In this document: piece by piece, positions 46,051 through 61,154 of the stretch | Position numbering within the stretch: position 1 is the stretch's first letter | How the letters are laid out: each line of letters starts with the position of its first letter | Source: Candidula unifasciata | Lineage: Eukaryota; Mollusca; Gastropoda; Stylommatophora; Geomitridae | Direction of reading: 5' to 3' | Assembly: GCA_905116865.2 (NCBI GenBank) | Contig: CAJHNH020002046.1 | Span: forward strand, 317,501 to 381,500 | Length of the DNA stretch: 64,000 nt | The notes under the pieces: model-generated | What the model was told of the DNA's origin: nothing | Database searches by the model: none | What the model saw: only the letters and a program-made list of their open reading frames with translations | Position numbers and translations under genes: made by a program

Positions 46051-46207
46051 TCACTGAATTGGTCCATTTTGCCTTAGACTCTTTAACCTGTTGACCTCAT
46101 CTGTCAGTGTCAGATTTCTCCTGGCCAGCATCTCAGTGTGTTGTTGTAAATACCGGATCATGTCTGCTTGTTTCTCCATAACTTCGTAGCAGTAACCACT
46201 AGCATTT
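46051..46207 (-). CDS. TMEM192: TMEM192 coding exon 6
   Basis: After GTTTTCAG the first base completes AGA, then 51 codons and TGA at 46051-46053. It carries the coiled-coil segment. Confidence 0.93.
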
Positions 46208-49200
46208 CTGAAAACGAGAGCAGAAACATATCTCAATACATTAAATTACAATTGATAACATGCTGTAAAGGAGCTCTGAACATTATAAATGGCAATCCCA
46301 ACCCAAGGGTTGAACATGGTATTATTTTATGTGAAAATAACTACTTTAAGCAACTGCAACAGCCAAGTGGCTATAAGACAGATGCTACAGTCGAATGGCT
46401 GTAAGGAAGATGTGACAGCCAAATGACTATATAGGGGCTGCAATAGCTACATGACTGTAAGGAAGATGCAACAGTCAAGTTGCTGTCAGACAGCCACCAC
46501 TGGCATCCAGGCAGCAAAACATTGCGTGGCCTTGAGTCACGCCCGTTTGTCACAGCGTACTGAGATGAACTTTCGACAACATGGAACACCGCTACCAATG
46601 CTGCCTGGACGCAAATGGTGGCCATTTCCATATGTTATGATGTCACCCAACATTGCATGAATGAAGGTAGGTCCACTACAAATTGTTTTGCCAAATCTTT
46701 ATTAGTGCTCGAGTTATGAACGAACTACCGTGTTTCACCCCGAGTGAAATACTGATATTTTTTTAAAAAATATAATTTTTTTAAAGATGACAAGATTAAA
46801 TTTTTTCTTCTTCTGCCATCACTGTTGCTGGACTGTAGCCCAGTGTCATGGCTAACTGTTTGTGTTGTGTGCTTCTTGGGTGGCGAGTGATGGTTACAGT
46901 CACACCATATCCCCATGTGGGATCTGGGATGGGAGAAGATACATTCCTCTTTAATAAGTGTGTAGCAAAAGACAGTTAACTATGGATTAGCTGTAATCAA
47001 ATATACTGATCTGATAGGCACACATATCACAGAACAGCTCCCTCCCTTGTGGGTTCTGGGTCCCATTGTAGGGAAAACAAGAACAGACCCACTGCCTCCT
47101 AAACAAGCATGTCATAAGTCGACTAACTGGGGGCTTCCTTCAAAATCGGAGTGTGTCTGCCTGAGAAGCAACTAACCAGCGGTCTGCATACAAATAAGCA
47201 AGATCTGTAAAATAAATTCACACAAAAACTCAGGTCCTGGAATATAGCCAAAGTCCATATTCTTCCCCCCCCCCCCCCAACAGGACTCCTCCAACAGGGA
47301 GGACAGAGTCTGAAAGTAAACTCACAACCACCAGAGCAAAAATGGCTTAACCATTTCAACCAGGAGACCTCCAACTCAACATGTAATATGTCCTTTGCAG
47401 AAAGAGGCTCTCATCGCAGTTTGCCTGAAAGAAACTTGGGTCGCTGGCCAGCTCTCCCACCTCATGCACTTTCCTACTCAAGGTGTCCTACATCCCATGT
47501 CCATCTCTGTGCTGGTTGACCCCTGCCCCTCTTTCTTGGAACCATTCCCACCCCTACTATTCCGCTGTTTACCGGCCAATCTTCCTTGATATTTAGATCT
47601 TTTAGGATGTCAATAATTCTTTTCTTCTTGGTCCATGGTATTCAGAGAATCTTTCCACAGCATTGCAGCTCATGACTCACATCCGTATTTAGCCACATGA
47701 AAAATGTATGACCTCTGAATTTTAACCTTGATTTCCTTGCTGGTGCTCAACCGGAGACTTTAAATGCTGTTTAATCTTTGCACTGCCCAGAACTTTTTTT
47801 TCAAAGCATCCAGATAAAAAGACTTACATTTTGAAATTAAATATCTGTTATTCTTACAGTCCATTCTATGTGGCACTGGTAAGTCTGTAAGGCAAATGGC
47901 TTAACAACTTTGCCATGGAGATTTCAGTGAACAATTAAGAGCAGACAGAAAGAGTACTAGAAAAAAGAAAAAGTAAAGATCCTTTTTGCGCCTTTAGTTG
48001 CATAGGGCATATGGAAAGAGCACCCATATTTGTACAGACCAATCGGCACCAGGTGGGTAATGTGATCAGCATTACGCCAGCCGTCTTTACTTCCCCAGGA
48101 AGTAGCATCCTGGTACGGAAATTGGGCTGGGTCGACCTGCGACGCCCCATACCACGATAAAAATCCACAAGATTACTACGACAGTGACTAAAATATAACA
48201 ACACACAGTAGCTACCTGAGACCAACATCCGAGGATAAATACAAGCTCTCATAACTTGCAGTGAGTCCAGTCAGTGTAATGTCTGGCAAAGCTTTCTTGA
48301 AGTTGAACTTCATAACGTGGACTAAAGAAACAAAAGATAATTTCATATGGTTTCATATTAAAGAAACAAAAGATAATTTCATATGGTTTCATATTAAAGA
48401 AACAAAAGATAATTTCATATGGTTTCATATTAAAGAAACAAAAGATAATTTCATGTGGTTTCATATTAAAGAAACAAAAGATAATTTCATGTGGTTTCAT
48501 ATTAAAGAAACAAAAGATAATTTTATATGGTTCCATATTAAAGAAACAAAAGATAATTTCATATGGTTTCATATTAAAGAAACAAAAGATAATTTCATAT
48601 GATTTCATATTAAAGAAACAAAAGATAATTTCATATGGTTTCATATTAAAGAAACAAAAGATAATTTCATATGGTTTCATATTAAAGAAACAAAAGATAA
48701 TTTCATATGGTTTCATATTAAAGAAACAAAAGATAATTTCATATGGTTTCATATTAAAGAAACAAAAGATAATTTCATATGGTTTCATATTAAAGAAACA
48801 AAAGATAATTTCATATGGTTTCATATTAAAGAAACAAAAGATAATTTCCATATTAAAGAAACAAAAGATAATTTCATATGGTTTCATATTAAAGAAACAA
48901 AAGATAATTTCATATGGTTTCATATTAAAGAAACAAAAGATAATTTCATATGGTTTCATATTTTAGCAGAGACAACATTAATAACAATAAAACCTCAGTT
49001 TTTAAAAAACACAGACATTGGAAATATACTGCGTACATCATGAGGAAAAAGAATCGCCAAGCAGGCACTGAAATGGGAAACAAACCGACTGAGGATATGA
49101 GGATGTCCTTAAGAAACCCTAACAGAAACACTGTTGAGAGGTCAAAGATGCTGGGCTGGGTTCCATTCATGATAGCGAAGGACTGCACAAGAAAGAATAC

Positions 49201-52200
49201 AAGACTAGGATGCGGGCCCTATGTGACGTACAAGAGACAATAGGCTGAGGACAATATTAACTATGTGAACAGTAGCCTGCTGGTGTCAAGTGACCCTCCA
49301 TCTCCCTGTTGTGTAGAGTGGTTGGTAGGTAGGTAGTTGCACCCCACCAGGACATCACACAAGTGATAAACACCCAGTGACACAAGGTGCCACCATGAGG
49401 ATGAGGATCACCTGTGAAGAGGTCCTAGAAACCTCTTTCAGTCGTTAGGCCATATCTATGCCCCGGCTATATTCAGGGCCCCTGCCAAAGCCGGAGTAGG
49501 GCTTCCAAATAGCAATAAATTGCATGCCACGAGGAAACAACTTCTAAGTAGACTGGTAGCTCTGTCTCTGAAGATATAGCCCATTGAGGAAATTCACATA
49601 TGGAAAAGATTGGGCTCCACCAGGTTTGAAATACTACCTGAGACACACCATGTTTAATCAGATTATTCTATGGTAGGAGTATTCAACTAAGTTTTCACAG
49701 GGGCAAAAACAATGAAATTGGGATCATCACAGGGTAGAGGCTAGCACCAATGTAGAAAGATCACTAGGTGCATTGTTAATATCCTACCCCACACAGGGGA
49801 AATCCACAGGTCAGGGGACCGTCTAATATTTTAGGGGGTGGTAGATAGACTGCATGCAGTCGTGGGACCCAGGCTGCATGCAGTCGTGGGACCTAGGCTG
49901 CATTCTCTCATAGGACATAGGTGGGTTGGGGTTAGGGCCAGTTCTATATGTTTTGGGATCGCTGAAAGCATCAGAAAGCAGTGAAACACAGTCTTACCAC
50001 TCTCTATAATGTTGGACTGTTCTGTGACGTCATCTGGGGTAAGATATTGATATAGAAACGGTCATTAATGCAATACAATCTGCAATGACCCGCAGGCCAC
50101 TTACTAGGCCTCTGTGGGCTGGACTCGGTCCTCCAGCTGAAGAGCCCTGTTCTACAGTGACTCCGTCTTCCTCCTGGTTACCATGTACCATGTCGTCTGT
50201 TTCAGATCAAGTAAAAGTGAAGGACCCCTTTCCCATGCCTTCAGGGCATATGGGGCTAGACCTATATTTTATAGAACAATCGACATTTGGTGTGTGATGT
50301 GGTCAACGTCAAGCCGACCGTCTTCACTTCCCAGGACTGCACCTGGTACCCACTCAAGGTTGGGTCAACCTGGAAGCTAAGGTCATTTTTTTTAAGAAAG
50401 GCAGGTTTCATCAGGATCCGAACCCATGGCCTTCCAATCTGCAGGCGACTAGCCGCTACACCACAGTGACTCCCTCTCAGATCAAGGCCCATGCAAAAAA
50501 TTACCTAGAAAAAACAAAAGGTATGGATATGTAATAATATCTACCAGGATATTCAAAACAATACGACTTGGCTCAATACATGGGAGAAGAAATCCAGAAT
50601 GTGGCTGACTGGATGAGCCTCAAATATGAAAACGTTAAGTCCAGTGACACTGACAGTCAGTGGTAGAGGGAACTGATAGACCATTATTAGCAAATGAAGA
50701 CCCACAGACACTCTGTGCTATGGAACTATGATGTTGATATCAACAATACAAAAGACAAGAAGAGTTTTCACAGCAATAGGAAAGCAGTAATACCAAAACT
50801 GATACCAAACTTAAAAATAATTAGCTCTAATGTCAAACCAGTACTGCTGAATGAAGCTGAAACATGCAGAACTTCTTCTTCTTCAGCATTCTGAGCCCTT
50901 GATGTTCATTGCTGCAAATATCACCCGCCTCCACTCATCTCTCTGGCTGGCCTTCTCTTTCCAGTTGGTAAGTGTTTGCAGACCTGTCTGGACATTATCT
51001 CTCAATCGTCTTCTTGGTCTGCCTTGTGGCCTACGACCATTCAGCTCCCTTGTCCCCCGTGTGGGTTCCGGGGTCCCTTTGTGGGGAAAACAAGAATAGA
51101 CCCACTGCCTCCCCAAAAGCATGTCGTAAGAGTCGACTAATTGGGGAGCTTCCTTTGAAGTCGGAGTGCATCTGCCGGAGAGGCAAGGAACCAACAGTGT
51201 GTATTCAAGAGAATGAGATCTGTAAAACTGATGCACACGCAACACTCAGCTTCTGGAGCAGGACTGCAGTTCAGTAGTGGATGAGCAACCAGAACCTTCC
51301 ACCAGAGTTTACAGCTGGTGAACGCGAAGAAGAAGAAGAAGCTCCCTTGTGTATACATATAGTATTTACTTCTCTGTCATTTCACATTCTGTCAATATGC
51401 CCCCAGTCATTTCAGTCTATTTGCTCTCATGATGCCAGTAATCAATGGTGATTTAAACAGATTATGAATTTTCCTGTTTGCCTCTGTGATAGGTCCAAAG
51501 ATTCATCATAAGACTGTTTTTGAAAATTTGTAATAAACATGCAGAACACCTACAAATAATTACTTGTAAACTGCAAACATTTGAGTCCACACAGTGAAAA
51601 AGACCTTACCTAAAACCACAAAATAAAACACAAGAGTAAATAAAAACAAATAAGACATACCTAGATACACTAACAGTATAACAAGAGCTAGCATGCACTC
51701 AAAACTGATCAAGATCTGGATGTAGTGGGTTTTGTTGAGAAATTTGCAGTTTCCCTTGGAATCGCAATGACTGTCCAAGACTCTCATCACTATCACTAGC
51801 AAAGCATTGGCTGAAACAAAGAAAGTCAGCAGCACTCACATTTAAAATCAATTAAAGAAACACTCGGATAAAGGTAACAATGAAAACGTCTGACAAAATA
51901 AAGCAAAATATGCTCGGAAATAAAGTGTGCAATAAAGGGCTGCGTGGTCTGGAGGCATGGTGTCCGCCTCAAGTGCTAGAGGTTCCGGGTTCAATCCCCA
52001 GTAAGGGTTGGGATTTTTTCACACGGACTTGGACTTCAAGTAATTATCCCTGGTCTCTGGGTAGTGAGATCGGACACCTGTGTGCACTGCTGCGCACATA
52101 AAAAAAATCTCTTGGCAGTTGGAAATCGAAAAGAGTAGCCTAACGGCGCAGCCCGGGCAAAATTTGGAGTTAAAAATCAACTTAAAGTATTTCAGGATCC

Positions 52201-55200
52201 TCGCCGGTGCTACAGAGTTCAATTTATTCAGAGCTGAATAAAAGCACAGACAATAATGCATTTAGGCATCAGCTATTACACTGGATGAACCAGCATGTTA
52301 GTTGTGAAACCTTTGAGAGAATGTACAGGGTCCCCTTAACCTTCAACCGAGTCCTGTTCCCATTAACAGGTCATTAGTCGCATTTATATTTTTCAAAACT
52401 ATTTCCATTCACACTGCAGTTGTGGACAGTCTGTCATACGTAGTAGGGTCAAATAGACTGTGTCCAGACCCTGCTGCTCGCTAGGCATCAGTTGTGGGAA
52501 CTTTTTTGCCCTACCAGTGTTGTTACCTCTCTTTATTCACCATTTAATAATAACTCTGGCCACATAAAAATTGATAATATGAAACCCAAACAAATAGAAA
52601 CATATAAGTACTTGGGTGCAAAATTCGACTGCTCCAAACATATGAAGAGAAGAAATACAATCTAGAATACATTTTGCAAATAAAGTATATTATGCCCTGC
52701 AAATCTGCTAAAATGAAAGTTTCTGCCTTCTTCTTGCATGCATTCATCCAAAGTCTCTGTCTTGTAACACCAAGATTAGACCAGTTGTTTCATACAACGT
52801 GGAGCACAGCTAAAAGAGATGAATGAAGCCTTATTACAATTTTTTTCAAAACAGAGTATGAAAATGAATCTTTGGACCTACTAAGAGTGAGAAGCAACAA
52901 CGAAATTCATAATGTGTTTAATTTGGCATCAAGAGGACTAATAGACAGAAATGACTGAGGCATACTGAGATAACGTCAGATGACAGAGAGGCACACAGGG
53001 GAGTTGGATGGATCTAAAAGACAATAGAGAAATAATATCCGGACCTACAAACATTTGGTGTCCCCAACTGGAAAGAAAAGTCCTATCAGAAAGATGAAGG
53101 AAGGTGTGTGACATCTGCAGCAGTGAACATCAAGGGCTCAGAATGCTGAAGAAGAAAAGGTGCAGATGGTCATTAATTTGCACAGGTTATATAAAGAAGA
53201 ATGTGTAATTCTTTAAACTAAAGCACTGAGGTTCAGGTTGCCTGAGAAGCCTATTGAAAAATCATTCAGGGACTGACAGGAAGTCAGCAGCGACGGGGTC
53301 GCCAATTGGCTGGATGGTAGGCGACTTTGTTGCTGGTCAGGACAGTATTTGGGTCTGTCTCCTGTGATGGCATGACTACTGCAAGAGTTCTTTTCAGAGC
53401 TACTTGGTGGCATGGAATGTTAAGCTATTTTACACAACACACATAACCATAACCTACAGCTCCCCCCTTGGGGATGCTGGTTGAAAGTGACCATAATTCT
53501 TGTTTTGTAAGCAAAGAAACGTACAAACTGGCAACAACAAAGCCTTAGTTGGCAATGCTTCTAACACAGACTGCGGGTATTTCATTGTCAACAGACTCCA
53601 ATCCAATACCCACAGGGATGCAATATAAAAATATATCAGCTGCATAAAGAACTTTTTCATGTGTGAGCACTTTATCTTTCAACGGAGCATAGGCCTCTGA
53701 ACAATCTGTGCCATCATCCTATCCTTTACTATTGTAAGCAGCTGCTTCTCCATGTCCATCTTCTCTTTTTCACCTCATTCTGTAATTCTCTTCTTCAATC
53801 CTGGAGATTTTTCAGAGGTGAAAGGAGGGAAGTAAGCCATCTGGACTCCTTTCAGCTTTCTCAGTTCTTCTTTTTCTCTTCCACCTTGTACCTCATCGAA
53901 GTGTCAGGAAGCTTTCTCAGTGACCTGTCATAATTATACTGTCATTCTTCTAGAAGAAGTCTCTTCACATTGTGTTTGGCTCGTTATTTAGTTCTTTATA
54001 AGAAACATTCTATCTCGCATTGTACCTCACCAGGACATCACACAAGCGATAAACACACAGTGACACAAAGTGCCACCATGCAGATGAGGATCACCCATGG
54101 AGAGGTCCCAGAAACCCCTTTTAGTCGTTAGGTCAGAGTTATGACCCGGCTATATTCAGGGCCCCCGGCAAAAGTCAGGGTAAGGCTTCAAATAACGAAA
54201 AATTGCATCCCTCATGGGGACGATATAAGAAACATTCACAGATGGTTGCCCTTCATGGTCGTAATGAAGTAGCCACCCTGAAACACCTAGGCCACAGATA
54301 CTGACTACTAACTCTAAAACCTACCACAAGAATTTATAAACAGCGGCATTCGGCGCAGGTTTCTGGTCTGCCTGTAGAAGTCCAGATAACCATAAAGGCG
54401 ACTTTGATCATGCTTGTGTTGAAGATATCTGTCAACAGCAAACAGAATGAACCACATCCCACCATGAATGTACATAGTTAATGACAAGGGATCTTCACCG
54501 CATGCTCCGTCTGTATCATCACACTGAACTGGGATTAGGTAAGCAGATATTACAAGTCCAACCTAGAAATGGAAACACATATCTAAATCATTTCATTATA
54601 ACAACTAAAAAAATATGAGGCAAACAATGGAACATTCACGTAAATGGGAACAAATATTACAAAGGAATATAAACTAAATAGAAACAATCTTAAACAGGAC
54701 AAATATTAAAACCACCTGAGAACAACTATAACACTGATATCTTGTGAATCCCCGTGTGGGCTCCGGGGTCCTATTATAGGGAAAACAAGAATAGACCCAC
54801 TGCCTCCCAAAAGCATGTCGTCGGATTCCACTAATTTTGAGCTTCTTTTGAAGTCAGAGGGCATCTGCCTGAGAGGCAAGCAACTAGCAGTCTGCATACA
54901 AATGAGTGAGATCTGTAAAACGGATGCATAGGTAACACTCAGGTTCTGGATCAGGACTGCAGTCCAGAAGTAGATAACAGGCCCATAAGTGCTCAGTCCC
55001 CATCTTCAGCAGCAAGCAAAGAGTTCCGATTGTACCAGTAACCGCCTGATACTCCCTTGAGTGTTGAGCGTCTGCCAGATCCCCTGGTAACTCCTCACAG
55101 CCCCATTCTCCTCAGACCGAAATGATCTATCTGTGCCTCCTCACTGTTTACCCATTCACAAAGGCCATCATAAAAGAATGGATTGCAACATTAGGTACTT

Positions 55201-58200
55201 TGTGAATGGCTGGCCTAACCTTCATCTTCGTGCCAGGTAATGATGGTGTTCAAGGCAATGAGTGTGCAGTCTTGCTGATACTGCAGTTACTATGGCTGCT
55301 CTGGTACTGGACAGAAGAGATGATATAAATGCCACGCTAGCACTTCACGCAAAGACGAATGCGACAACAGGCATGACTCTGGATCCCTGTCCATGCTGAT
55401 GGACATGGGTGTGCAACCTGGAGCTGCAAGAAATGAATATTTCACCAAGGAAACAAGATATATCATTAATCGACACAGAACTAGCGACATCAGTCACTTG
55501 CACAGGTAGAGCTTTTGAGGAGGAGATCGGAAGCACCTATGGATCTGTCCGGAGTGTTGTGATAATCCTCACTCTCCACTTATCATTAAAAGGTTAGTTA
55601 TCAAATGAAGATAGAACACATAATTTTAAAATTCTATGTAGAAACTATACATTATATGTAGACTTAAGAACCATACAAGCTGAGAAACATCTGATACAAG
55701 CAGAAATATAGTAACTGAGGGGAAAATTATAACATCATAATCACATGCAGGGCCACCTAAACAATGCACAAGTGCAAACAGGGCCAATGATGCTAACTAG
55801 GCTACTGGGGAACAATTATAATAATACTATAAGGTAAAGGCAAGCTCTGTTCTTTGGTCATGTGATGAGGGAGGCTTTGAAGAATATTGTGAGGACTGGA
55901 AAGAATAACGGTAAAACAGGGAGAGGCAGACCAAGAAAGATGATGATGGAGGGATTGTGACGGTGATACAGAGGGATACAATCAGTGGAAATGATCCAGA
56001 GGACAAGGGACTGAGATCTGTGGAGATGCACGAACACCTAAGCGAGTCGGCAGGGCACATGAAGATGATGATGACGATGCTGAGGTGTAAATGCGAACAA
56101 AACTGTGAATGGATAAAAGAAACAAAATCTTCTTAGCATTCACGGTTAGTAAACTCTTGACAGAAAGTTCTGGTTTTTGGCCATTTAACAGATTAGCCTT
56201 TTTGTATATGCAGACAGCTGGCTCTTGTGCGACATGCTTCTTATTTTCCCTGTGGAAACACAGGGAGAAAAATAAATGAGGCTGCCCTTAAAAAAAAAAG
56301 GTATATACAAGCAAAGTAAAGGACTCCCTTCCCCCCTCTTAAACAAATTAAGTACATGGTGCTAGTCGTGTATTCGTAGACAGGTCAACATTCGGTGAGT
56401 GATGCGGTCAACATCATGCCAGCGGCCTTTACTTCCAACAATTCCAACAAAGTCATTTTGAAAAAAAAAAAAAAAAAATCCTGTTCCATGCAGATCTAAA
56501 ACCATGACCCTTGGATCCGCAGGTAAGTACATGGCCACTACACTAAAGTTCCCCCCTTAAAGAAGTAGACAAAACCATAAATTAGTTATAAGACTTTGAT
56601 GTAGAAAGTCACAATTATTTTGCACATGATAACTTTTTCAGGTAATCCACACAGAGAAAGAAATGGAGATGCGTTCAGGAACAGTAAAAGGTGTTGAAAA
56701 ATTTAACAGAAACAAGGTAAGGAAAGACACACACACATATACAAGCAAAGGCTTTGACCACACTTTTTTATCAAAGAGTAAAAAAAAATTTTTAATCCTG
56801 CAAATAAAAATTTAAAAATTATATTTCAAAAACACTGGCGGTTATTTCACATAATAAAAGAAATGAACATGTGAAAAAAAAATATAATAATAAAGGCTAA
56901 GAACTTGACACACACAAAGGACAGGGGAAAAAAACAAGTTATGGTGTCCATATTAGATTAGAGAGGACTGAGCACTGACCAATGCTGGACAGAGAACGCA
57001 TAACCATTTCCCTCAGAGAGGCCACAAACCTGGCGCATTTTCCCATTGCCAATGCTTATAAATGCTTAACTGGCACAGCTGCAGTGACCTGTTTCCGAGT
57101 GGCCTAGTTAATGGTTCTGTTTGTGCTTGCAATGTTTAGAAGGCCTGGATATGATTATATTTACTAAATATAGAGTCAAAATATTTTTTACAGCGATTAT
57201 GATGTTGTAATTTGCCTTGTTAACTTTAGAATTCTGACAAGGTTACGGGGTCACAGTGTGAGTCACCCAAAACATTTTCTGAAGGTCTTAGGGGCAGTGA
57301 TCAATATAAATCTTCACACCGTTTATGTTTCCTGATTAATCCTTTCATATTTTCTGGAAATATAAATGTTTTAATGTATATAAACAAATATTTGTTTTTG
57401 AATGTTTAGCGACTTGTGTAAAATTGTTGTTCTTTCTTTTAAGGATGTTTGTTAGGGCTATAAAGTGGCAGGGAGGTTAGACAATTAAGGGTTTTGAGAA
57501 AGGTTTTCAAAAGGTTTGTAAGGTAAAAGACAAACTATGGGTGCTGTTATTTTCTAAAGAAAGACATGTGGTGTTGTTGCCGAAGTAAGATTGTATGGCA
57601 GTGACAGATGTGTCAGTGTCACCTAGGCAGCATAGGCTTTCAAACTGAAAGACAGTCTGGTTTGGGAGCCTCCAGATGAATGTCAATAAGATACCGACTT
57701 ATAGTGACTTACATAAATAATATGGGGAGCCGCCATGGCCGAGCGGCTAGACGCTCGTCGCAAATCAGAAGGTCGTGGGTTCGCTCCCTGACAGAGCCAA
57801 ACTTTTAAAAAAATGACCTTGGCTCTCGAGTCGACCCAGCCTTGAGTGGGTACCGGGTGCAGTCCCGGGAAGTAAAGGCGGTCGGCGTGATGCTGACCAT
57901 ATCATCCATCAGTGCCGATTGGTCTATAAAAATATAGGTCTAGCCCTATATGCCCAAAGGCGTGGAAAAGGGTCCTTTACTTTACTTACATAAATAATAT
58001 CTGTCAATATGATTGCCCAGGAAATGTTCATTGGTCGGTGGGTGATTTCTGGCCCTGACACAAGCTCTATGTGATCCACAATAAGATCATCATCGGAGTT
58101 GGCTGCGTGATCATCTGAAAATCCAAAGTAACCCTGTGAACAGATGACAAAGACACTGACTGTTATAAAGAAAGGTGGACAAAGACACTGACTGTATTAA

Positions 58201-61154
58201 AGAAAGGTGGACAAAGACACTGACTGTTATGAAGAAAGGTGCTCAATTCTTCTTCTGTGATCGCCCTCACTGAGAAAATAAAAAGATGTTTGGCAAGCTG
58301 CATTGGGGTTTACAGATAGGTTGTAATATCTGCGCCTTTCGATCCAACACTTTCGATTTCAACATACCCCTAATTAGTAGCCTTTTAGGACATACTTTAT
58401 TGGGGGAGAGGGGCAGTGGGTCTACTCTTTTTACCTGCAAAATGGGTTCCTGAACCCACATGGGGAAGATATGCTCAATCATTTATGACAATTGCTGTCA
58501 CTTTCTGCCCTTTAACCTCCATGGAACTGCCAATTAATGAATTGATGAAAGAATGAATGAATCAAGAACTGACACCACTGCACTGGGAACATTCCCATAC
58601 ATGCTCCATCTCCCTTTCTCAGTAGCTAACGAAGAGGCGGCATGCTAATAATGGAGCAGACACTTTCAACCAACTTCTACCTAACATTACCCATAGTTGC
58701 CTCTAAGGATACCCAGGTTTGAATCTTCTGTACAGTTTTGAAGTGTAATTTTTTTCTTTTGGGGGAACAAATAAAATCCTAACCTGCGACAGCACTAGCC
58801 ATGCGGCCCTTAATCTTCAGACTCAAAGATCTCCCTGCCTTAATGGCAAAAGTGGTAAACACTAGTAATTGGCAGTGTTTTGGGCCTCTTATGACACGCT
58901 TAGTATAATGCACCATTTCAATGTTTTGCTTCTCCTCTAGGCTCTAGTAACATATGGCACATCAATCACTGTACTTATTATAAACACCAGGTAATATTCC
59001 CAAAGACAACAGTGAGTATACTTCAACCAACCTTCATTGTGGATGCTGTACACCAAAAAAAAAAAAAAAAGAACCACTATTATTCGTTTACTCAGTCTTC
59101 ATTCTTCTTTCATAACCTATTCTTGTAATCTATAATCTGCATGTTAACACTATAATCTGTAGCAGTGTATTCAATTTTAGACTGCCAGACCTATTTGACA
59201 AAAATAAGTATCCTTTATCTGAAACAACTCTTTATCCCAATTATAATCCTAAACGGTTGAACAGGATAACTGTGACATAAATACTACTATAGCTGATGAG
59301 AAAAAGTAGTATGTGATCAGCAATATGAATAGAATATATCGGCACTGGGAAGGACAACTGAGCTGTAAGCAACTACAAAGGGGGTGGGGTGTGGGGGTAA
59401 TCACAAATTATCAGTGCTGGAGAAGTGGGGGTGGGGGGGGGGGGGAAAGGGGGGTCAAGGCATCAATGCCTGGTTAAATTGTGTAGTAATAATGATAAAA
59501 GCAGCCATAAGGATTGGCAATCAAGTTGGGAACTTTTTAAAACATTTTAAAGAAGGAGATATACTATTGCCTGATTAATTCAATTTATACAGTGAAATAA
59601 TAATAAGATCCATACACTGTATGCGAGAAATCACCGTTGGTGGGCATATTGTTAACAACCGGCGATATGCTGACGATATAGGTTTGATCGCTGAAAATTA
59701 AACACAACTGCAAGAAGAGATGGAAAGTGAAAACAAGGGTCTTAGTCTGAACAGCAGAAAAATAGAAGTAATGGTAATTACAAATAAAACTGACCCTCTA
59801 AAATGCAACATCAAAGTAAATAGGACAAACCTCAAGCAAGTTAGTGTCTTTTAGTACTTGGGTACTATATCATACTATATGCCCTAAATGGCTAAAGGCG
59901 TGTAGGTGGAAAATCTTATCACTATCACGTCTGGCAGGTATACTAGTACTACATACTAGTATAATTTTTTCTGTATCAAGTGCCACAAACGATAAATATT
60001 AAATAAGAATGTGAAACCTCAAACTGAAAATAATAAGTGAAGCTAAAATGGGAATGGAGAGAGAAGCAACAACAAAATTTGGCTCTCCTTTCAACTATGG
60101 CCTGTAGACAACAGTAGACGGCCGGTTAGTCTGAGTTCTGTCCCATGGCTGCAGTGCAATTACGGACTGGAAAAGGCACAAATCAGACAACACAGTGAGG
60201 TCGACATGCCTGTGAGACCCCGCGCTGCAACTTAAATTAGCGACCGCGTTCATTTACCGCTTCTTGCCACGCAGAACGGAAAGGACTAGGGGGAACGAAA
60301 CAAAGTGACAAATTTACTGTGTGTTGGCGATAGACAGCGCACAGTGGCCTACTGTCATCATACGATTAGGGTTTGGGTTAGGGTTAGGAGTAGGGTTAGG
60401 GTTGCTACTATGAGTTTGTGCGAAGACGAGATGCGGCGACACTAACTGTAACCCTAACCCACACCCCTGACCGTATGATTATAGCAGAGAAGTGCATGCT
60501 GTCTATCGCCAACACACAGTAATTAATCATGTCATTTGTTTCGTTCCGTCCTTTCCACTCCGTAATTGCACTGCAGCAAGGGGACAGAACTCCGACTAAA
60601 CGGCCGTCTACTGTAGTCTCCCGGCAGTAGTTGAAAGGAGAGCCCAAAATTCATACCATTTAATCGCTGGCATCATGAGAGCTAACAGAATGTCAAAGTC
60701 AAATGATAGAGGTAAAAACTGTATACACAAGGGAGTTGAACTGGTCGTAGACCACGAGGCAGACCAAGGAGAGATAGATAACGGATAACGTCCAGACAGA
60801 CCTGCAAACACTTGCTGTCACCAACTGGAAAGAGAAGCAACTAGAGAGATGAATGGAGGCTTGTGATATCTGCAGCAGTGAACCTCAAGGGCTCAGAACG
60901 CTGAAGAAGAAGCAGAAAACTTACTAAAAACTTACTACTGACTTGACTGGACTCACGGCGGCACTGTTTGCTAAGCTAAAACAAAACTAAACCTAAAACT
61001 ACTAACTTAATTAAGCGTTAACAACTACTAACCACCAAGAAGTTAATAAATTATTAAAATTTAAATACATAAGTGCTTCAAATTTCCAAACACGAATAAA
61101 TATATATAAGAAACTTACCCCCGAATGAAGTCTATCGTTGGATAAACTAACCAT
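46051..61154 (-). CDS. TMEM192: TMEM192: lysosomal transmembrane protein 192
   Basis: TMEM192 is a four-pass protein of late endosomes and lysosomes that forms dimers; its precise activity is unsettled. Six coding exons join with consistent phases into 276 codons (human protein 271): 61154-61119, 58133-57990, 54562-54325, 51810-51661, 48321-48216 and 46207-46051. Likely membrane spans are WAIILTDIIYVGLVISAYL (across exons 2/3), IHGGMWFILFAV, NALLVIVMRVL and ILISFECMLALVILLVYL. DRYLQHKHDQSRLYGY and YRQTRNLRRM match the human loop ECYIQYHHSKIRNRGY/YRSTRHLKRL. The C-terminal EVMEKQADMIRYLQQHTEML matches the human [20 protein letters not shown] coiled coil. No broken frame. Introns are full of repeats; intron 4 ends in a minisatellite and a SINE sits at the exon 2 donor. 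Confidence 0.95.
47043..47265 (+). mobile_element. SINE-2 copy in TMEM192 intron 5
   Basis: TTGTGGGTTCTGGGTCCCAT, AACAAGAACAGACCCACTGC and AAAATCGGAGTGTGTCTGCC mark a diverged plus copy, truncated before the AAG tail. Confidence 0.75.
47972..48160 (-). mobile_element. SINE-1 fragment in TMEM192 intron 5
   Basis: Tail and core are kept (GTAAAGATCCTTTTTGCGCC, CAGCATTACGCCAGCCGTC); it stops before the tRNA-like head. Confidence 0.75.
48216..48321 (-). CDS. TMEM192: TMEM192 coding exon 5
   Basis: 106 bp: completes V, then HVMKFNFKKALPDITLTGLT and ASYESLYLSSDVGL, then AG of an Arg codon. The acceptor TTTCTTTAG is the edge of the 36-bp array; the donor is GTAGCT. The pattern matches human VKIRRFNKAKPEPDI. 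Confidence 0.9.
48322..48966. repeat. 36-bp minisatellite at the TMEM192 exon 5 acceptor
   Basis: About 17-18 copies of AAAGAAACAAAAGATAATTT + CATATGGTTTCATATT, with one shortened unit near 48845. In the gene's direction each unit ends TTATCTTTTGTTTCTTT, a polypyrimidine tract; the last is followed by the AG acceptor of exon 5. No AG dinucleotide occurs on the minus strand inside the array. A 236-codon frame through the array is not in the TMEM192 frame. Confidence 0.95.
49320..49520 (+). repeat. dispersed repeat with TAGG start
   Basis: GGTAGGTAGGTAGTTGCACC, then ACCAGGACATCACACAAGTG, GGATGAGGATCACC and CCCGGCTATATTCAGGGCCC. The same order is at 54020-54200 and, reversed, at 24385-24610. 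It lies in TMEM192 intron 4. Confidence 0.65.
49855..49925. repeat. short tandem repeat, 3 degenerate copies
   Basis: CTGCATGCAGTCGTGGGACC occurs twice, followed by a decayed third unit. Confidence 0.75.
50212..50476 (-). mobile_element. SINE-1 copy with 10-bp target duplication
   Basis: TCAGATCAAG flanks it (50202-50211 and 50477-50486). Full-length reverse copy of 265 bp in TMEM192 intron 4, with a tRNA-like head at the high-coordinate end. Confidence 0.9.
50690..50875 (+). mobile_element. LINE fragment (family of 24728-26142)
   Basis: It reads SSNVKPVLLNEAETCRT, matching NSNVKSVLLYGAETWRT at 25700, then stops at the next repeat. Confidence 0.6.
50877..51420 (-). mobile_element. LINE tail beta interrupted by SINE-2
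   Basis: The minus strand encodes GRRPQGRPRRRLRDNVQTGL, NWKEKASQRDEWRR and MNIKGSEC. SINE-2 at 51054-51339 lies between two parts of this tail. Confidence 0.75.
51054..51339 (+). mobile_element. SINE-2 copy with 11-bp target duplication
   Basis: AGCTCCCTTGT flanks it (51043-51053 and 51340-51350). It differs from the copy at 26437 at only about six positions by eye. It lies in TMEM192 intron 4 in antisense to the gene. Confidence 0.95.
51661..51810 (-). CDS. TMEM192: TMEM192 coding exon 4
   Basis: 150 bp after TTTCAG, donor GTATGT. It encodes the last two membrane spans. The phase matches exons 3 and 5. Confidence 0.93.
51935..52215 (+). mobile_element. SINE-4 copy with tRNA-like head
   Basis: The head reads GGGCTGCGTGGTCTGGAGGC with B-box GGGTTCAATCCCC; the body has CCTGGTCTCTGGGTAGTGAG and CGCCGGTGCTACAGAG. 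It is the reference copy for SINE-4 here, in TMEM192 intron 3. Confidence 0.7.
52560..53155 (+). mobile_element. LINE remnants and beta-type tail
   Basis: 52580-52640 reads KQIETYKYLGAKFDCSKHM, an RT thumb-like YLG block. 53040-53155 ends in a beta tail (CAGCAGTGAACATCAAGGGC, TCAGAATGCTGAAGAAG). Heavily decayed. Confidence 0.5.
53370..53525 (+). repeat. dispersed repeat shared with 62590-62750
   Basis: Both read GCAAGAGTTCTTTTCAGAGC-like, GGTGGCATGGAATGTTAAGC, a CACATAACC block, a TTGGGGA/TCGGGAA block and TTGTAAGCAAA. Family unknown. Confidence 0.55.
54020..54200 (+). repeat. dispersed repeat (family of 49320)
   Basis: CTCACCAGGACATCACACAA, GATGAGGATCACCC and GCTATATTCAGGGCCCCC align with 49345-49490. 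It lies just 3' of exon 3 in intron 3. Confidence 0.65.
54325..54562 (-). CDS. TMEM192: TMEM192 coding exon 3
   Basis: 238 bp, entering in phase 0 after TTTCTAG and leaving in phase 1 at GTAGGT. It encodes VGLVISAYLIPV through PLFINSC, the best-conserved part. Confidence 0.93.
54750..54976 (+). mobile_element. SINE-2 copy in TMEM192 intron 2
   Basis: CCCCGTGTGGGCTCCGGGGT, AACAAGAATAGACCCACTGC, CAGGTTCTGGATCAGGACTG; truncated before the tail. Confidence 0.75.
55160..55560 (+). pseudogene. LINE RNase H end fragment
   Basis: It reads LTFIFVPGNDGVQGNECAV (RNase H signature), then WYWTEEM and CATWSCKK/QPGAARNEYF-like end sequence, matching the minus-strand copy at 26226-27130 without its SINE-2. 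It lies in TMEM192 intron 2. Confidence 0.65.
55835..56065 (+). mobile_element. LINE tail fragment (type alpha)
   Basis: GGTCATGTGATGAGGGAGGC, then a GRGRPRKMMME reading and CTGTGGAGATGCACGAACAC, as in 9165-9300. Confidence 0.6.
56318..56560 (-). mobile_element. SINE-1 copy
   Basis: Reverse copy with GTAAAGGACTCCCTTCCC, TCAACATCATGCCAGCGGCC and a degenerate head; an A run at 56459-56476 is expanded. A SINE-2 fragment (reverse) lies just before it at 56130-56250. Confidence 0.7.
56561..57706 (-). other. TMEM192 intron 2, no recognised element
   Basis: AT-rich, single-copy-looking in this window. No additional exon was found. Confidence 0.5.
57707..57723 (-). other. duplicated TMEM192 exon 2 donor (target duplication copy)
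   Basis: On the minus strand it reads ATATTATTTAT followed by GTAAGT, identical to the real exon/intron boundary at 58000-57984. Splicing here instead would add 277 nt of antisense SINE, not a multiple of three. Confidence 0.85.
57724..57983 (+). mobile_element. SINE-1 copy inserted at the TMEM192 exon 2 splice donor
   Basis: The best SINE-1 copy: head GGGGAGCCGCCATGGCCGAG, A-box TGGCCGAGCGGCTAGACGC, B-box GGTTCGCTCCC, tail GGAAAAGGGTCCTTTACTTT. ACTTACATAAATAATAT (17 bp) flanks it at 57707-57723 and 57984-58000. That target is the complement of ATATTATTTAT|GTAAGT, the exon 2/intron 2 boundary. The SINE is antisense to the gene. Confidence 0.95.
57990..58133 (-). CDS. TMEM192: TMEM192 coding exon 2
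   Basis: 48 codons after a TTCACAG acceptor. It carries the acidic N-terminal region (DDHAANSDDDLIVD) and the first half of span 1. It ends TTTAT, then donor GTAAGT at 57989-57984, the last bases before an inserted SINE. Confidence 0.88.
58146..58241. repeat. 32-bp tandem repeat, 3 copies
   Basis: The unit is GACAAAGACACTGACTGTTA + TAAAGAAAGGTG. It starts 13 bp upstream of the TMEM192 exon 2 acceptor, inside intron 1. Confidence 0.95.
58248..58468 (-). mobile_element. SINE-2 copy
   Basis: Reverse copy: CAATTCTTCTTCTGTGATCG, TAGTAGCCTTTTAGGACAT, GGGGCAGTGGGTCTACTC. In TMEM192 intron 1. Confidence 0.7.
58469..59559 (-). other. TMEM192 intron 1, dispersed repeat and AT-rich sequence
   Basis: 58555-58640 belongs to the repeat seen at 28371 and 43680. 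58770-58860 resembles 38260-38345. There are an A run at 59056-59070 and a G run at 59437-59447. No exon. Confidence 0.5.
59560..59900 (+). mobile_element. LINE RT fragment
   Basis: It reads EITVGGHIVNNRRYADDIGL (motif C with YADD), then LQEEMESENKGLSLNSRKIE and a KQVSVF*YLGT block. Stops at 59698 and 59853. In TMEM192 intron 1. Confidence 0.7.
60081..60644. mobile_element. palindromic fold-back element with 7-bp target duplication
   Basis: The left arm from GGCTCTCCTTTCAACTA and the right arm ending TAGTTGAAAGGAGAGCC are inverted copies. Further inverted blocks follow inward: TGTGTGTTGGCGATAGACAG left against CTGTCTATCGCCAACACACA right, and CATACGATTAGGGTTTGGG against the CTAACCC...CGTATGAT block. 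CAAAATT flanks both ends (60073-60079 and 60645-60651). About 100 bp of the left arm (near 60171-60280) has no partner. There is no coding capacity. It lies in TMEM192 intron 1. Confidence 0.85.
60364..60470. repeat. telomere-like TTAGGG repeats in both orientations
   Basis: 60366-60402 has five TTAGGG-type units (with GGGTTT and GGAG variants). 60448-60458 reads CCCTAACCC-type on the opposite strand. They lie at the centre of the palindrome. Confidence 0.85.
60700..60915 (+). mobile_element. LINE tail beta
   Basis: GACCACGAGGCAGACCAAGG, CCTGCAAACACTTGCTGTCA, CCAACTGGAAAGAG and AACCTCAAGGGCTCAGAACG: the end encoding NWKE and NLKGSE. In TMEM192 intron 1. Confidence 0.65.
61119..61154 (-). CDS. 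TMEM192: TMEM192 coding exon 1
   Basis: ATG at 61154, 12 codons (MVSLSNDRLHSG), donor GTAAGT at 61118-61113, phase 0. It is short, so this start rests on phase agreement and the strong donor; the human N-terminus is not alike. Confidence 0.7.

Follow-up and report, generated by a model that had tools for sequence, protein, structure and literature searches.

Introduction

The insertion of a SINE on a splice border, with the splice site embedded in the target duplication, has been described in the dog, where, according to PMC7349775, the merle element is a tRNA-derived SINE lying in reverse orientation at the PMEL intron 10/exon 11 border, with a 15-bp target duplication that holds the original acceptor. 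The same source credits the antisense Alu with seven potential donors and 12 acceptors. Here, a SINE located at a donor site is described, i.e., at the exon 2/intron 2 border of the TMEM192 gene of the land snail Candidula unifasciata, in a stretch of 64,000 nucleotides (contig CAJHNH020002046.1, positions 317,501 to 381,500) referred to as the window.

Results

The TMEM192 gene

The gene lies on the minus strand of the window and consists of six coding exons (Table 1), whose joined translation is identical in 276/276 residues to P0002, the annotated TMEM192 of C. unifasciata, which rules out a broken gene. The product of exons 2-4 belongs to the Pfam family TMEM192 (PF14802), with an E value of 6.9e-31 and a score of 107.6 bits (cut-off 25). 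On this map, introns 1 and 2 are 2,985 and 3,427 nt long, respectively. In the alignment with P0002, the exon 2/3 junction is ungapped in 14 of the 15 other proteins, the remaining one (P0016) beginning past it, and P0017 carries a 10-residue insertion upstream of the junction. A scan of viral contigs for relatives of the exon 2 peptide returned none.

Some other observations can be mentioned. In P0016, a relative retrieved in the protein search, the exon-3-like sequence continues into a tail that does not resemble exon 4, which gives the impression of a read-through of intron 3. A 36-bp tandem array (48323-48962; 18 copies, 95% matches) is located in intron 4 and leaves a single base (48322) between itself and exon 5, each of its units containing TTTTGTTTCTTTA, the pyrimidine tract present in the exon 5 acceptor, minus the AG. 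Three copies of a 32-bp tandem repeat (58146-58241) end 12 bases before the start of exon 2 (58133), the unit reading CACCTTTCTTTATAACAGTCAG... in the direction of the gene, an acceptor-like stretch. Lastly, a SINE fragment in the gene's own orientation (47970-48136) is located about 80 bases beyond the exon 5 donor (exon end 48216).

Table 1. Features of the TMEM192 locus (positions in the window; a slash marks the exon end).
Feature	Position	Strand	Basis
Repeat, intron-side copy; holds the second donor TAT/GTAAGT (minus strand; exon end would be 57713)	57707..57723		sequence
Second, exon-distal donor GTAAGT	57707..57712	-	sequence
SINE, head at 57724; tail would extend to 57988 with a 12-bp duplication	57724..57983	+	SINE-copy comparison
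Stop TAG, reached after 21 codons if the SINE is exonised	57924..57926	-	counted from translation
SINE 3' end and tail GGGTCCTTTACTTTACTTA (antisense TAAGTAAAGTAAAGGACCC); final five bases shared ambiguously with the repeat	57970..57988	+	sequence, tail comparison
Repeat, exon-side copy: end of exon 2 and first donor	57984..58000		sequence
Exon-proximal donor GTAAGT, needed for the annotated protein	57984..57989	-	sequence, exon map
TMEM192 exon 1, coding part	61119..61154	-	exon map
TMEM192 exon 2, 144 nt	57990..58133	-	exon map
TMEM192 exon 3	54325..54562	-	exon map
TMEM192 exon 4	51661..51810	-	exon map
TMEM192 exon 5	48216..48321	-	exon map
TMEM192 exon 6, including the stop	46051..46207	-	exon map

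The insertion at the exon 2/intron 2 border

The border is occupied by a direct repeat, ACTTACATAAATAATAT, whose two copies are identical at 17/17 bases, with 277 bases from start to start, and bound a 260-bp SINE that is antisense to TMEM192, the intron-side copy being flush with the head of the element. The initial annotation had read this arrangement, from the letters alone, as an antisense SINE enclosed by a 17-bp repeat of the exon/intron boundary; the identity of the two copies and the exon map, which reproduces the whole protein, bear out the position of the repeat as well as the gene and the exon named there, and the element is one copy of an abundant family (see below). An exact 17-bp repeat abutting the head of a SINE is judged to be far beyond chance, and a chance repeat was thus ruled out on the basis of both the identity and the flush position. 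No SINE-free haplotype was found in the assembly, where the flank 57984-58500 gave one full-length match, the others being partial repeats of at most 84% identity (best 40 of 885 candidates).

The SINE family and the age of the insertion

A BLAST search with the SINE as query gave 17 HSPs in the window (one of them the focal copy) and 29 across 200 kb of its contig. The family is abundant, with 5,713 first-look candidates genome-wide; among the best 40, which were scored, the other full-length matches are 85-90% identical. Joining the window, the 200 kb of the contig, and 39 loci, 51 copies of full length were collected, with 72-100% identity to the focal SINE; these are dispersed and short, with a common head and a common 3' end, as is seen in SINEs. 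Target duplications of variable length flank 42/51 copies at a score of at least 8; the eight copies scoring below this value (loci L022, L027, and L031, three in the contig stretch, and two in the window) were excluded, as was L006, which sits in a local repeat. An A-box-like motif is present in 45/51 copies and a B-box-like one in 40/51; no tRNA was detected in the head, either as an Rfam match in 57600-58100 or by ARAGORN in the 51 copies. The tail of the family is made of CTTTA and CTTA units and T runs (CCTTTACTTTACTTAC is one of its forms); it supplies ACTTA(C), and its antisense reads GTAAGTAAAG.

In comparison with the consensus of its subfamily, i.e., 14 other copies sharing a nine-base deletion, the focal SINE differs at 14 of 217 non-CpG sites (6.5%). 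Against a consensus built from 42 younger copies, 14 differences were counted, two of them private, and none of the 14 is private across all 51 copies, although this sharing is inflated, the copies having been chosen for their likeness to the focal SINE. Given this bias, 0-0.9% was taken as the low bound of divergence and 6.5% as the high one. At 1e-8 per site and a generation of one year, the insertion would be at most about 6.5 million years old, an age that is poorly bounded because nearly all the focal differences recur in other copies; this rate is described in PMC8059500 as not empirically derived, and in the models presented there the split between sister species is placed at about 1 Ma.

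The two donors

On the minus strand, both repeats read ATATTATTTAT/GTAAGT, i.e., TAT/GTAAGT twice, in agreement with the claim that the same donor is present in both copies; in the sense of the gene, the end of exon 2, ...ATATTATTTAT/GTAAGTAAAG at 57990, recurs as ...ATATTATTTAT/GTAAGTCACT at 57713. The two donors are identical across nine bases, the far one being unmutated, and each scores 3.47 versus 8.63 for the consensus on a weight table, with a poor exon side (TAT) and a perfect intron side.

When exon 2 is ended at 57990 and joined to exon 3 (54562), the annotated protein is obtained, whereas the extension to 57713 adds 277 nt, shifts the frame, and meets a stop after 21 codons; the added 277 nt and the frame shift had been foreseen in the initial annotation. 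Since only splicing from the first donor leaves the annotated 276-aa protein contiguous, exon 2 can be placed as ending at 57990, and the removal of intron 2 apparently takes the SINE along, as judged from the annotated protein and the exon map. The source annotation of P0002 combined homology and RNA-seq, as reported in PMC8496239, so that its exon 2/3 junction may be homology-driven.

The origin of the exon-side donor

In the 41 other copies, 35 of which are top matches of a query that included the focal tail and thus form a skewed set, the aligned duplication has a median of 12 bp (range 8-19, mismatches allowed; 8-14 in 38/41), and the exact run has a median of 10. In L016, L017, L020, and L040, ACTTAC spans the junction between tail and target, and the left flanks disclose AC or C as the opening of the target; hence, GTAAGT can be built half from the target and half from the tail. 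Antisense GTAAGT was found within the tail, the duplication, and the next ten bases in 14/43 copies (the focal one and L006 counted), most of which come from the query with the focal tail, the proportion among the six others being 2/6. Duplications open with tail-like 2-mers in 26/41 copies and with 3-mers in 15/41, a figure partly built in, because chance agreement with the tail is included whenever a repeat is extended to its maximum; tail-like 4-mers open 4/41 (p 0.04), and the offset control also gave four. None of these counts was taken as evidence of a pull by the tail.

At the focal locus, the native intron also reads TAAGT at this point, which makes the possible origins indistinguishable by sequence, and the first five or six bases of the exon-side repeat may be duplicated target, SINE tail, or a share of each. 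The exon-side donor may be a hybrid, with the exon end and the first G coming from the target and TAAGT from the SINE tail or from the pairing between target and tail. If the duplication is 12 bp long (57712-57723 and 57989-58000), the nick would have separated the G of the donor from its T. The initial annotation had proposed a splice site repaired by its own duplication: this would hold for the exon end and at least the first G, but not securely for all 17 bp as target, in view of the median of 12 in the other copies and of the ACTTA(C) that the tail supplies.

A second locus on the same contig

An older copy of the SINE, 79% identical (L058; C2045:178929-179231, i.e., L058:8929-9231), might represent a further case. 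Its duplication is TTTCACTTACC(T/C)TA, in register TTTCACTTACCTTTA and TTTCACTTACCTCTA; the two antisense sides read GAG/GTAAGT and AAG/GTAAGT, with a strong donor-like AG/GTAAGTGAAA on both. No open frame longer than a few codons leads up to the donor-like site in the three frames inspected, and the site may therefore be the border of an untranslated exon, or may not be a donor.

Discussion

Proposed explanation and its alternatives

The body of data presented here (the sequence, the exon map, the identity of the protein, and the SINE copies with their tails) can be explained by assuming that a tRNA-like SINE whose tail consists of CTTTA/CTTA units was inserted antisense at the TMEM192 exon 2/intron 2 border, most likely by target-primed reverse transcription. 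The duplicated target would span the border, from the exon end to at least the first intronic G; the remaining TAAGT of the exon-side donor would be provided, with identical letters, by the target copy or by the SINE tail, so as to leave a full GTAAGT on both sides. Splicing from the proximal donor would then remove the SINE together with intron 2, the far donor being silent or of minor use, since its use would lead to a truncated frame. Taken as a whole, from the insertion to the hybrid or copied donor and proximal splicing, this explanation appears very probable.

It might be argued that all 17 bp are duplicated target and that the likeness between donor and tail is a coincidence without any role. 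The focal sequence alone is compatible with this idea, mismatch-tolerant duplications of 15, 17, and 19 bp do occur in three of the 41 other copies, and in L029 a 12-bp target, itself opening with ACTTA, follows an ACTT tail; however, the focal exact run of 17 exceeds that of any of the other 41 copies, the longest of which is 14, and the surplus corresponds to the tail-like ACTTA. On balance, this is a serious competitor, to which we would give somewhat less than an even chance. The opposite extreme, in which the antisense tail acts as a ready-made 5' splice site, donor-like target ends pair with the tail at priming, and the family is drawn to donors and yet harmless there, is unlikely; were it true, a retroelement would bring along the cure for the splice sites that it hits.

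As for the far donor, it might be in real use, a long and early-ending exon 2 lowering the output of TMEM192. The equality of the two sites would permit it, and the far one is nearer to the acceptor, a position that the proximity rule credited to Reed and Maniatis in PMC9225289 would favour under intron definition; moreover, it carries no mutation. According to the same source, however, exon definition takes over from an intron length of roughly 250 nt, and in exon-defined minigenes with two donors of identical strength the upstream one is preferred; both introns being long here, this preference and the annotated protein point to the donor at 57990. Furthermore, one protein search with limited candidate lengths gave no candidate for the 81-aa truncated product (weak evidence), and the second donor is expected to have stayed intact by chance with a probability of 0.32-0.86 at divergences of 6.5-0.9%, so that its integrity is no evidence for its use. 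A regulatory role of this kind is thus improbable. Even less credible, to the point of being almost negligible, is an artefact of assembly or annotation, or a true end of exon 2 located elsewhere: the assembly is a draft (1.345 Gb in 7,176 contigs versus the 1.286 Gb and 8,586 scaffolds given in PMC8496239), but the structure of SINE, tail, and repeat is like that of dozens of other copies, and the exon map yields the full annotated protein.

If the proposed explanation is correct, an element inserted where a gene is among the most sensitive to damage would have had a way of being tolerated, and would have left a spare donor behind. This might suggest a rule, according to which a SINE family with a tail similar to the complement of GTAAGT survives in antisense orientation at donors more often than other families, every such insertion leaving a spare donor.

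Comparison with known systems

The closest parallel is the PMEL SINE of merle dogs (PMC7349775), since in both cases a SINE lies antisense at a splice border, with the splice site within the duplication; in the dog, however, the site is an acceptor and mis-splicing is forced by longer tails, whereas in the snail it is a donor and the annotated protein is normal. Antisense Alu exonisation, as treated in the same source, also relies on splice-like sites in an antisense SINE, but in the snail element it is the tail that resembles a donor, where it meets the target. In introners, according to PMC9860276, a splice site likewise derives wholly or partly from the duplicated target; these, however, create new introns, and most of them bear signs of DNA transposons, whereas the snail SINE has enlarged an existing intron. 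The possibility that it is itself an introner was considered and fails, as the element occupies the beginning of a 3.4-kb intron, and the acceptor of this intron (before 54562) has no relation to it. With a duplication of 12 bp, the locus would resemble the fungal [D1,2] spliceosomal twin introns in having extra sequence between the first and second bases of the donor; those, described in PMC12403724, are nested introns without target duplications and without a SINE. The two-donor minigenes of PMC9225289 share with the snail gene the competition of equal 5' splice sites for one acceptor in the context of long introns, but they were artificially built and placed in transfected cells. The insertion of a SINE on a splice site that lies within the duplication is a known kind of event, as in the dog merle allele (PMC7349775), of which the snail locus is a new example, at a donor and apparently harmless; what it adds is a SINE tail that may itself have formed part of the donor.
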